38,440 bases of DNA. Source: Opitutus sp. GAS368. Lineage in GTDB: Bacteria > Verrucomicrobiota > Verrucomicrobiia > Opitutales > Opitutaceae. Numbering within the stretch: the first letter of the stretch is position 1; each line of letters starts with the position of its first letter. The position numbers and the translations under genes are program-made. The notes under the pieces were generated by a model. The model did not search any database. It was not told where the DNA came from and worked only from the letters and a program-made list of their open reading frames with translations. The DNA lies in assembly GCA_945903545.1 (NCBI GenBank), contig CAMDOO010000028.1:1-38440 (forward strand). The letters are read 5' to 3'. Positions 15,017-17,808 of the stretch are shown one piece after another.

Positions 15017-15748
15017 ATGATCGAGGTCGAAGGTCTCACCAAGCGCTACGGCGATTTCACCGCGGTCAGCCAGCTGTCGTTCACCGTCCGGCCGGGCGAG
15101 GTGCTCGGGCTCGTGGGGCCGAACGGCGCGGGCAAAACCTCCACGCTGCGCTCCGTCGCCGGGATCATCCCGCCCAACGGAGGGAGCATCCGCATCGCCG
15201 GGATCGACCTCGTGGCGGATCCCGTCGAGGCCAAGCGCCGGCTCGCGTTCTTCCCCGACGAGCCGCGGCTCTTCGAGTACCTCACGGTCAGCCAGCATCT
15301 CGCGTTCGTCGCCCGCATCTACGGCGTCACCGACCACGACGAGCTCGCCGCCCCGCTGCTGGAGGAACTGGAGCTGGCGAACAAGGCCGACGCGCTCCCC
15401 GGCGAGCTCTCCCGCGGCATGAAGCAGAAACTCGCGATCGCCTGCGGCCTGCTGCACTCCCCGGCGGTGATGTTCTTCGACGAGCCGCTGACCGGCCTCG
15501 ACCCGCTCGGCATCCGGCGGATGAAGGACTCCATCCTGCGCCGCGCGCGCGAGGGCTGCACCATCGTGCTCAGCTCCCACCTGCTGCACCTGCTCGAGGA
15601 GGTCTGCTCGCACGTGCTGATCCTCAAGCAGGGCACCAAGATCGCCGACGGCACGATCGCCGAGGTCTCCGCCCAGTTCGCGAACGGCGAGACCGACGTC
15701 AGCCTCGAGGAAATCTTCATGCGCGCCACGGGCGGTTCGGAGTCCTGA
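15017..15748 (+). CDS. ABC transporter ATP-binding protein
   Basis: A 243-residue cytoplasmic ATPase. Walker A GPNGAGKT is at 34-41, the signature LSRGMKQKLAIA at 131-142, Walker B AVMFFDE at 150-156 with the D-loop after it (LTGLDP), and the switch His in LSSHLLH near 188. The fold and length match the ABC-2-type exporter ATPases (CcmA/YbhF-like). The ATG start gives the canonical MIEVEGLTKRYG N-terminus. The membrane partner lies downstream on the same strand after a 299-bp gap filled with repeat DNA. The substrate is unknown; antibiotic, lipid or polysaccharide export would all fit. Confidence 0.93.
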   Translation: MIEVEGLTKRYGDFTAVSQLSFTVRPGEVLGLVGPNGAGKTSTLRSVAGIIPPNGGSIRIAGIDLVADPVEAKRRLAFFPDEPRLFEYLTVSQHLAFVARIYGVTDHDELAAPLLEELELANKADALPGELSRGMKQKLAIACGLLHSPAVMFFDEPLTGLDPLGIRRMKDSILRRAREGCTIVLSSHLLHLLEEVCSHVLILKQGTKIADGTIAEVSAQFANGETDVSLEEIFMRATGGSES

Positions 15749-15757
15749 AGGAGAAGT

Positions 15758-16034
15758 TAACCGCGAATGGACGCCCATGGACGCGAATTGTTTCGGAGCC
15801 CGGAAGGGAACGCTGATTTCCGCTGGTCTTCGCTGATGCTGAATACGGAAAACCCATTGGCACCGGAAATCTCGTCCCCGGTAGGGCGCGGAATCCACTC
15901 CGCGCCGGGCTTACCAGCGGGCGGATGCGGAGCCCATCGCCCATCCGGCGGCGAGCGGAGTCGCCGCCCTACCAGTTTGGGACACTGCCGATCCTCCGGC
16001 ATCATTCGCGTCCATTCGCGTCCATTCTCGGTTT
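15758..16034. repeat. MITE-like element with 32-bp terminal inverted repeats
   Basis: The left arm (15758-15789) and right arm (16003-16034) are inverted copies that match at about 27 of 32 positions and are made of the repeated unit gaatggacgc. Between them, at about 15881-15972, lies an imperfect hairpin bounded by ggtagggcg and cgccctacc, a motif that recurs in the U32 gene insert and elsewhere. It fills almost the whole gap between the ABC ATPase and its permease. No transposase is encoded, so movement would need help in trans. Confidence 0.7.
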
Positions 16035-16047
16035 CAATCCTCACCCC

Positions 16048-17808
16048 ATGATCCGGGCCCTGCTCTACCTGCGCGGGTACTCGCTGCTGAATCTCCTGCG
16101 CACGCGGGCCCAACGGCTCCGGCAGCCGAAGTACCTTCTCGGGCTCGGCGCCGGCATCCTCTATTTCTGGTTCTTCTTTTTCCGCCACCTGCCCGGCGGG
16201 GCCGGCCTGGACCGCGGCTCCGGGGTGGATCCGCTGCAGTTCATCTTCGCGGCCTTCGCCGTGCTCGGCCTGATCCGGATCGGCTCGGCCTGGCTCGCAC
16301 CCACGCCGCGCCCGAGCCTCGATTTCAGCGAGGCGGAAATCGCCTTCCTTTTTCCCGCCCCGGCCACGCGCCGCCAACTCGTCCACTTCAAGCTCGTCGG
16401 CACGCAGATCACCATCCTGCTCTCGGCTCTCATCCTCACGGTTCTCACCCAGCGCGGCGCGGCACTCGGCGGGAACGCCGTGACCCACGCCATCGGCTGG
16501 TGGCTGATGCTCTCGCTCGCCCACCTCCACAATCTCGGGGCGGCGTTCACCGTGGCCCGGCTCGTCGAGGGAGGCATGAGCCGCGCCCGCCGGCAGCTCA
16601 TCGTCGGCGGAGTGATTTTTGCCGTCATCGCCGGCATCGCCTGGGGGGCGTGGACCAGCGCCCCCGATGCCACTGCCTGGATGTCCGCCTGGCAGGAGCA
16701 AAACACCGGCGACCGGCTCGGCACCGCGGTCCTCGCCGCCTACGTCCGCGAGGTCTCCGGCACCGGGATCATCGGCTGGCTGCTCCTGCCGTTCCGCGTC
16801 GCGCTCGCGCCGTTCTTCGCCCCGGACGTGGCCGCCTTTCTGCGCGCCCTCGGGCCGGCCCTGCTGCTGCTGGCCGCCCATTACTTCTGGGTGATGCGCA
16901 ACGCCGTGTCGTTCGAGGAGGCCTCCATCGCCGCCGCCGAGAAGCGGGCCTTGCTGGTCGCCAAGCTCCAGGCCGGACAACGGCCGTTGTCCACTGGCGC
17001 ACCCAAGCCCCGCAAGCCGCCCTTCCCGCTCCGGCCCGGCGGTGGCTGGCCGGAGATCGCGTTCCTGTGGAAGAACCTCCTCTCCACCCATCCCTGGCTC
17101 GGCCCCCGCGCGCTCGGGCCGGCGACCCTGGTGACGCTCGCGCTCGCCTCGCTCGTCTCGCCGCGACTCTGGTTCATCCCGATCATCGCCGCGGTGTATT
17201 TCGTCCTGCTGGGACCCCAGCTCGCGCGGCAGGACCTGCGGACCGACCTCGTCAATGCCGACCTGCTCAAGAGCTACCCCCTGCCCGGCTGGCGCATCGT
17301 GCTGGGACAACTGCTGGCGCCCACGGCGATCCTCAGCGGGCTGCTCTGGCTGGCACTGCTCGCCCTCTTTGTGACCAGCGGTCGCACGAACAGCGCGCCG
17401 GCCTGGCTGACCGTCGAGTTCCGGCTGTCGGGCCTGGTCTGCCTCGCCCTCCTTATTCCACCCGTCTGCCTGCTGCAACTCCTGGTGCCCAACGCCGGGG
17501 CCGTGCTCTTTCCCTCGTGGGCGATGGCCGGCCGGCAGACCCGGGGTGGTGGCGGGATCGAGGTCATGGGGCAGCGCCTGATCTTTGTCGCCGGCCAGAT
17601 GCTCGTGTTGCTGGCGGCCGTCCTGCCCGCCGGAGGGTTTGCCGTGCTGGCCGGCTTTGCCGCCAGCCTGGCGTACAGCCCGGCCGCCGCCTTCCTCACC
17701 GGCTCGGCCATGTTCCTGCTGGCCCTCGCCGCGGAGATCGCCGCCGGTATTTACTGGCTGGGCCACCGTTTCGAACAGTTCGACCTTTCCGCCGAGTCGG
17801 TGAAGTAA
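16048..17808 (+). CDS. ABC transporter permease
   Basis: A 586-residue membrane protein from the ATG at 16048 (MIRALLYLRGYSLLNLLRTR). About ten to twelve hydrophobic segments are visible, in clusters near 30-45, 60-80, 105-150, 180-205, 240-290, 360-400, 430-475 and 520-580. The conserved N-terminal FPAPATRRQLVHFKL region and the late LLKSYPLPGWRIVLGQLL motif are typical of large two-half ABC-2-like exporters. It forms a transporter with the ATPase upstream (15017-15748), probably in one operon interrupted by the repeat element. Seven bases after its stop begins a small zincin-like gene. The substrate is unknown. Confidence 0.88.
   Translation: MIRALLYLRGYSLLNLLRTRAQRLRQPKYLLGLGAGILYFWFFFFRHLPGGAGLDRGSGVDPLQFIFAAFAVLGLIRIGSAWLAPTPRPSLDFSEAEIAFLFPAPATRRQLVHFKLVGTQITILLSALILTVLTQRGAALGGNAVTHAIGWWLMLSLAHLHNLGAAFTVARLVEGGMSRARRQLIVGGVIFAVIAGIAWGAWTSAPDATAWMSAWQEQNTGDRLGTAVLAAYVREVSGTGIIGWLLLPFRVALAPFFAPDVAAFLRALGPALLLLAAHYFWVMRNAVSFEEASIAAAEKRALLVAKLQAGQRPLSTGAPKPRKPPFPLRPGGGWPEIAFLWKNLLSTHPWLGPRALGPATLVTLALASLVSPRLWFIPIIAAVYFVLLGPQLARQDLRTDLVNADLLKSYPLPGWRIVLGQLLAPTAILSGLLWLALLALFVTSGRTNSAPAWLTVEFRLSGLVCLALLIPPVCLLQLLVPNAGAVLFPSWAMAGRQTRGGGGIEVMGQRLIFVAGQMLVLLAAVLPAGGFAVLAGFAASLAYSPAAAFLTGSAMFLLALAAEIAAGIYWLGHRFEQFDLSAESVK

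Follow-up and report, generated by a model that had tools for sequence, protein, structure and literature searches.

Prokaryotic MITEs, as characterised in the cited sections of PMC10969869, are multicopy, gene-less intergenic sequences of less than 500 bp bounded by terminal inverted repeats, and the insert described here shares these features. One of them, Chunjie-1, disrupts a copy of a phosphate-uptake operon (PMC10969869, same sections). In Verrucomicrobia, Opitutus terrae is described in the part of PMC3733652 cited here as highly enriched in GTAG REP-type repeats. Another class of small sequences, the S23-coding intervening sequences (IVS) of 23S rRNA, resembles the gene-bearing elements reported below in its small size, inverted ends, single small ORF and tandem 7-nt repeats by that ORF (PMC4990558, cited section). 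GxxExxY (TIGR04256/PDDEXK_3) figures in the literature passage considered here as an incidental neighbour gene. A literature search on GxxExxY, PDDEXK_3/PF13366/TIGR04256/TIGR02436 and the words found no description of the word-arm class presented here.

The window (the whole stretch of DNA that was analysed, 38,440 nucleotides of Opitutus sp. GAS368) contains an ABC exporter operon in which 299 bp lie between the ATPase stop (15748) and the permease start (16048). The best ten matches to the ATPase in other genomes all came from the same genus or family and showed 72-94% identity. Thirty ATPase loci from this and related genomes were compared; a permease adjoins the ATPase in 11 of them, the present locus included, and the gaps in the other ten genomes are -4, -4, -4, 2, 5, 7, 21, 114, 133 and 172 bp. 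An earlier note, made from the sequence, had proposed that a MITE-like element splits an operon whose relatives have almost no gap at this point. The statement about relatives was correct for seven of the ten genomes (gap of 21 bp or less) but not for the other three (114-172 bp). The ATPase and permease genes of both same-genus genomes overlap at ATGA (gap -4), and the spacer is missing from the identical junction. Compared with this overlap, the 299-bp spacer is a genuine insertion, so the proposed separation of the ATPase from its permease was confirmed: the insert is DNA inserted at the ATGA overlap between two operon genes, and its coordinates had been given accurately to within a few bases (Table 1).

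Table 1. Coordinates of the features at the ATPase/permease junction and of related regions in the genome.
Feature	Position	Strand	Basis or remark
ABC exporter ATPase (PF00005)	15017..15748	+	domain match
Whole spacer: insert plus possible target duplication	15749..16047	+	absent in both same-genus genomes (-4 nt overlap)
Left arm	15757..15788	+	TTAACC, then CGCGAAT 15762-15768, CGCCCAT 15772-15778, CGCGAAT 15782-15788
Orphan three-word array CGCTGAT/CGCTGGT/CGCTGAT, 10-nt spacing	15811..15837	+	direct repeat
REP unit: GTAG and hairpin GGCGCGGA-ATCCAC-TCCGCGCC	15881..15906	+	many genome copies
Second REP unit, inverted: GTAG and hairpin GGCGGCGA-CTCCGC-TCGCCGCC	15947..15972	-	many genome copies
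Right arm	16004..16033	-	minus-strand reading AACCGAGAATGGACGCGAATGGACGCGAAT
Permease (PF16962 ABC_export)	16048..17808	+	start from homology with residue 1 of relatives
Regions with a compact inverted pair	L022, L152, L154-L157, L159-L161		ungapped finder

The window retains the permease start, and its ATPase gene still ends at the ancestral stop codon; this fits the duplication of a few bases holding ATGA. The putative left target duplicate consists of TGA only (CCTGA versus CATGA) and is too altered to serve as proof. Inverted repeats were also significant in the junction spacers of two relatives, G019 (equalled by 4 of 200 shuffles) and G003 (1 of 200). That all long spacers belong to the class was rejected, since the spacer of G005 was matched by 98 of 200 shuffles and so has no significant inverted repeat.

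The ends of the insert form an inverted repeat of 40 nt with 83% complementarity (15759-15798/15994-16033). Its ungapped score was 24.6, compared with a mean of 9.0 (sd 1.2, maximum 13.8) for 300 dinucleotide shuffles; the terminal inverted repeats built of GAATGGACGC units are thus present as the earlier note had described them, far beyond chance. Each arm starts with AACC or a similar sequence and continues with three 7-nt words at 10-nt spacing, those of the right arm being CGAGAAT, CGCGAAT and CGCGAAT on the minus strand. CGCGAAT accounts for four of the six words; CGAGAAT is one letter off and CGCCCAT two letters off. As in the class defined here, the arms of the insert are inverted and composed of three words of about 7 nt, spaced 9-11 nt apart and of the CRCNRAK type.

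A second inverted pair (15880-15908/15945-15973) lies inside the outer arms and is separate from them. It has GTAG at the foot of the hairpin, is multicopy and forms an inverted pair, as GTAG REPs do. The internal hairpin described earlier is present and is an independent REP pair, itself represented many times over: the genome contains dozens of copies of this pair (window 15880-15973), some full and some partial. The orphan three-word array has the appearance of a single arm belonging to some other element of the class, and no partner arm for it was found among the listed inverted repeats of the window. Both this orphan arm and the REP pair, situated in the loop, are probably later additions. 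RNA folding of the 299-bp insert gave -142.7 kcal/mol (z -5.1). Elsewhere in the window, heptad-like words at 70-105 (CTCGACACTCGACGCTC) resemble, by eye, one arm of an S23-type element.

Searching the same genome with the arm pattern (up to 3 mismatches) returned 28 matches and none with the reversed control, so that the termini do have other copies; at the same tolerance the pattern was present in 16 of 38 genomes, this one included. Compact inverted pairs with the same or similar words were detected in nine of 17 regions around pattern matches. A second full-length copy of the whole insert was not found in the genome, where partial matches fell mostly on the REP pair. Two more gene-less copies, both on contig C11, are located at stop/start junctions for which both same-genus genomes have empty sites; one of these reads TGAGCATG in G001 and TGATG in G002, and the other reads ATGA in both. 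Insertions at stop/start junctions retain both the stop and the start. The check for target-site duplications that the earlier note had suggested gave no clean fixed repeat around the elements: direct repeats of at least 7 nt in the 30-nt flanks occurred in 6 of 84 elements, with 2.9 expected. Overall, the insert is short (299 bp), gene-less, bounded by terminal inverted repeats, paired with an empty site and represented by dispersed termini, features by which MITEs are recognised. Together with the compact copies elsewhere in the genome, the empty sites and dispersed termini support the MITE-like reading. The insert is a real MITE-like insertion that is not common to the two same-genus genomes; judged by sequence and copy number, it would belong to the word-arm class.

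Matches to GxxExxY were found in 27 of the 38 genomes, this one included, with 11 in its own genome, some of them fragments. Contig C28, which carries the window, has none, and for this reason the insert is claimed as a gene-less derivative only. The GxxExxY gene at C3:57359-57706 (L118/L168) sits between CGCGAAT arms, and also between genes that read as another ABC ATPase and permease. The same junction in G002 is occupied by a gene-less element with CACGGAT words and holds no GxxExxY element. Both L118 and L204 are GxxExxY elements with CGCGAAT words and have ends of the same type as those of the insert. The GxxExxY element at this second ABC-type junction spans L292:7281-7763, and its gene-less counterpart with different words in G002 is at C170:30907-31057.

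Inverted-repeat scores of at least 16 were obtained at 22 of 26 usable GxxExxY loci of relatives (30 given) and at 2 of 30 control ABC-ATPase loci. In a second set of 80 loci from many phyla, in which the records are mostly metagenome-assembled, 55 of 76 usable loci reached a score of at least 20, compared with 8.9% of swapped pairs. Two archaeal records were included: arms were present at L217 (Methanosarcinales) and absent, at score 18, from L238 (Methanothrix). The common word form at GxxExxY loci is ACRCVRAK, as in CACAGAG, CACGGAG and CGCGAAT. These data show that word arms flank GxxExxY genes across many phyla and also occur without a gene. Among 58 elements scored for the direction of neighbouring genes, 31 had co-directional genes on both sides and 2 had opposed ones; in the remaining 25 one or both sides could not be assigned, and four of these had an opposed downstream gene. 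On the GxxExxY genes themselves the gene caller made no wrong call but left 59 of 80 undecided; a cruder one gave a ratio of 17 to 1. Such co-direction fits either read-through expression or selection against transcription conflict.

The association was also analysed in 145 genomes of the phylum with a degenerate arm pattern (1 mismatch at most), for which the reversed control gave 0 throughout. Arms were present in 48 genomes and GxxExxY in 69 (68 above the family cut-off): 46 genomes had both, 2 arms only, 23 the gene only and 74 neither (Fisher p 6e-18, a value that ignores kinship and includes the arms around the GxxExxY genes themselves). No arm was found with the strict arm pattern in 23 genomes carrying GxxExxY. 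Among the 25 listed genomes of family f26, G057 alone has arms (20) and alone has GxxExxY. A single gene may be accompanied by many arms: 70 in G100, 39 in G053 and 20 in G057.

Six one-gene genomes were examined, the word classes being assigned by hand from the listed words. A plain match between the arm words and the sole nuclease had been expected and was clear in G057 only. There every one of the 20 arms carries words of GAAT or AAT type. Twelve have exactly the scheme CGCGAAT/CGCGAAT/CACGAAT, which is also that of the arm on each side of the gene; one of these flanking arms additionally forms a separate gene-less hairpin with a partner closer to it. The gene lies tightly inside CACAGAT arms in both G100, where 36 of 61 listed arms (70 in total) are of that type, and G053, where 14 of 39 are, the rest being CACGAAT in each case. 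The arms of the gene in G116 are CACAGAT/CGCAGAT, matched by 3 of 15 arms, and those in G170 are of the CGCAAAG type, matched by 0 of 2, while the weak-scoring GxxExxY gene of G159 had no word-arm pair around it. This mixed outcome could be explained by a nuclease that accepts several words, by lost genes that left other words behind, or by another enzyme moving the arms, and it makes nuclease-driven movement slightly less likely. In G053, 34 of the 39 arms are clustered in about 38 kb (C1:2194224-2232635), 29 of them on one strand. Two arm pairs of G100 (L386, L387) have CACAGAT on one side and CACGAAT on the other and are possibly nested or hybrid.

The words of one element resemble one another and differ from those of other elements: in 49 elements the mean 7-mer distance was 0.38 inside an arm, 0.36 from one arm to the other and 1.27 between elements. 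Word and protein distances were correlated (Mantel r 0.51, 0 of 2000 permutations, 69 elements); in a narrower subset of 53 elements r was 0.115, calculated without permutation. On a tree of 110 GxxExxY proteins, 77 of them with a word, the last word letter required 6 changes, the shuffled mean being 13.4 and the minimum 11 (500 shuffles). Words ending in T, the type found in the insert, fall in one stretch of the tip order in 10 of 11 cases, together with L118, L204 and L334. That the last base of the word tracks the nuclease tree is the best reason for thinking that the nuclease reads the word.

Two GxxExxY proteins were tested and identified as PDDEXK_3 (PF13366, E 2e-43). Sixteen sequences were compared: D62, K74, Q86 and Y90 are the same in all of them, and E22 and E72 in nearly all; we take these to be the catalytic residues of a Cas4/RecB-type nuclease. 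An AlphaFold2 model (pLDDT 94.7) was used for fold comparison, in which chains of SSO0001 alone matched at E of 0.001 or less (TM 0.55-0.57); LHK-Exo and lambda exonuclease followed at E 0.003-0.01, and Holliday-junction resolvases were lower. SSO0001 is a Cas4 protein, and the modelled GxxExxY fold is nearest to Cas4. A sequence-profile search of solved structures with GxxExxY gave no match up to E 1.

Analogous arms were observed around S23 genes, two of which were tested and identified as PF05635 (23S_rRNA_IVP). Arms were detected at 22 of 27 usable S23 loci. Across the G000 loci L176-L185, L164:111-187, L174:133-217 and L180:315-402, the genes mostly lie in inverted 7-nt word arms (GTCGAGA, GTAGCGA, GGAGTCA and others), and gene-less pairs with similar words occur nearby or elsewhere. 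The S23 element on C11 (L289:16802-17238) is flanked by a 7-nt TGATCGA repeat. In G001 and G002 the corresponding junction contains short sequences resembling hairpins, which may be what is left of an older insertion. These S23 word-arm elements look like genome-wide kin of the rRNA intervening sequences.

The arms could in principle be moved by another enzyme, a tyrosine/HUH transposase such as RAYT/TIRYT or a reverse transcriptase, with GxxExxY as a passenger using the same ends. The genome has three Y1_Tnp genes, and TIR families flanking tyrosine-transposase genes ('TIRtrons') are on record (PMC3733652, in the part cited). Word-arm elements that carry four-helix S23 genes and no nuclease indicate that the architecture does not require this nuclease, and in five of the six one-gene genomes many or all arms have words other than those of the gene, or the gene is armless. 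We nevertheless regard this explanation as unlikely: arms and GxxExxY co-occur tightly, the last word base follows the GxxExxY tree, and a search of the 3-kb Y1_Tnp loci for the GTAG REP motif found GGTAGGGC motifs at one of the three genes (L207). The Y1_Tnp gene at C18:30093 has GGTAGGGC motifs at a distance of about 1.2 kb. We give even less credence to an ordinary decaying MITE of some insertion sequence unrelated to GxxExxY, with arms that look alike through convergence of simple repeats. Simple words could arise often, and the genome contains the whole insert only once at full length; this reading is nonetheless disfavoured and in our judgement very improbable, since ACRCVRAK words and their spacing are common to GxxExxY arms across phyla and the control gave 0 in 145 genomes.

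Retention of the arms at the RNA level was also considered. A transcript hairpin might join the stop and start codons, or be cut by RNase III as in the 23S rRNA IVS, and such a function would explain conservation. The strong fold of the insert, the junction position inside operons and the 31 to 2 excess of co-directional neighbours among the 58 elements all agree with this, and in Coxiella the S23-coding IVS, in which heptameric repeats likewise occur, is excised by RNase III (PMC4990558, cited section). If a transcript hairpin were selected, however, mismatches between the arms should favour G-U pairs on the sense strand. Sense and antisense wobbles numbered 126 to 122 at GxxExxY loci and 104 to 98 at the same loci with other alignment settings, 28 to 39 at S23 loci and 33 to 43 when counted in the host sense. 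Selection on the arms at the RNA level was thus not seen in any of four counts, two of which come from largely the same loci, and Rfam returned no family at gathering score and two sub-threshold matches only. We consider this explanation improbable.

We lean, with moderate confidence, towards the insert being a non-autonomous, MITE-like member of the GxxExxY word-arm elements, and infer that its mobilisation was driven by the nuclease. The GxxExxY nuclease would recognise the words and cut or nick the element ends, or the hairpin or cruciform that they form, moving full elements and, in trans, gene-less ones. A likely cognate GxxExxY gene lies in the same genome at C3:57359-57706, itself enclosed by CGCGAAT arms. 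If a short target duplication carried the ATGA, one side of the element would keep a stop and the other a start, and insertions at stop/start junctions survive because neither reading frame is broken. In the host, ATGA translational coupling has probably been lost, and the ATPase-permease transcript has probably acquired a strong hairpin. With no fixed duplication, no RNA-pairing signature, 23 armless gene-bearing genomes and no movement seen, this mechanism is drawn from association, and mobilisation of the insert by GxxExxY is plausible.

More tentatively, GxxExxY elements in many phyla may be mobile elements of about 0.43-0.64 kb whose sole gene encodes a small Cas4-like nuclease reading arrays of a short word that evolve concertedly within each element; they would insert co-directionally with host genes at stop/start junctions, be expressed by read-through and give off gene-less hairpins, which the nuclease would move in trans, with S23/IVS as a parallel class using 7-nt words. 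If the nuclease is the mobiliser, GxxExxY proteins, for which 69 of the phylum's 145 genomes examined gave matches, would acquire a role, and a class of word-like spacers within operons would be accounted for. It also raises the question of how six word copies in two inverted arms stay alike, yet differ between elements. Taken together, the data point to word-arm elements as a family of very small mobile elements that has received little description.

Several differences separate them from the systems named at the outset. Compared with prokaryotic MITEs as presented in the cited sections of PMC10969869, the ends of the insert are arrays of short words that vary from element to element, and neither a transposase parent nor a regular target-site duplication was found. 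The S23/IVS elements (PMC4990558, cited section) encode a four-helix bundle and not a nuclease, have 7-nt instead of about 10-nt spacing, and target rRNA instead of operon junctions; the insert itself was rejected as a 23S rRNA intervening sequence, as it lies between two protein genes and C28 has no S23 match. The hupL MITEs of Thiomargarita, for which the authors propose a parent enzyme with a PD-(D/E)XK_2 endonuclease domain of Yhg-A type, differ in the nuclease family (PFAM12784; PF13366 here) and, in the part of PMC4853749 cited, have 19-bp inverted and 10-bp direct repeats and no word arrays. Among the GTAG REP and RAYT/TIRYT systems, 'REPtrons' and 'TIRtrons' (PMC3733652, in the part cited), the inner hairpin pair of the insert corresponds to inverted GTAG REPs, and TIRtrons offer a formal parallel to a gene combined with terminal-repeat families; the outer arms, in contrast, have no GTAG and are linked to a PD-(D/E)XK-like nuclease, not to an HUH transposase. 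Insertion sequences measure about 800-2000 bp according to the cited sections of PMC10969869; if the nuclease is the mobiliser, GxxExxY elements would be among the smallest self-moving elements, and would move with no transposase.
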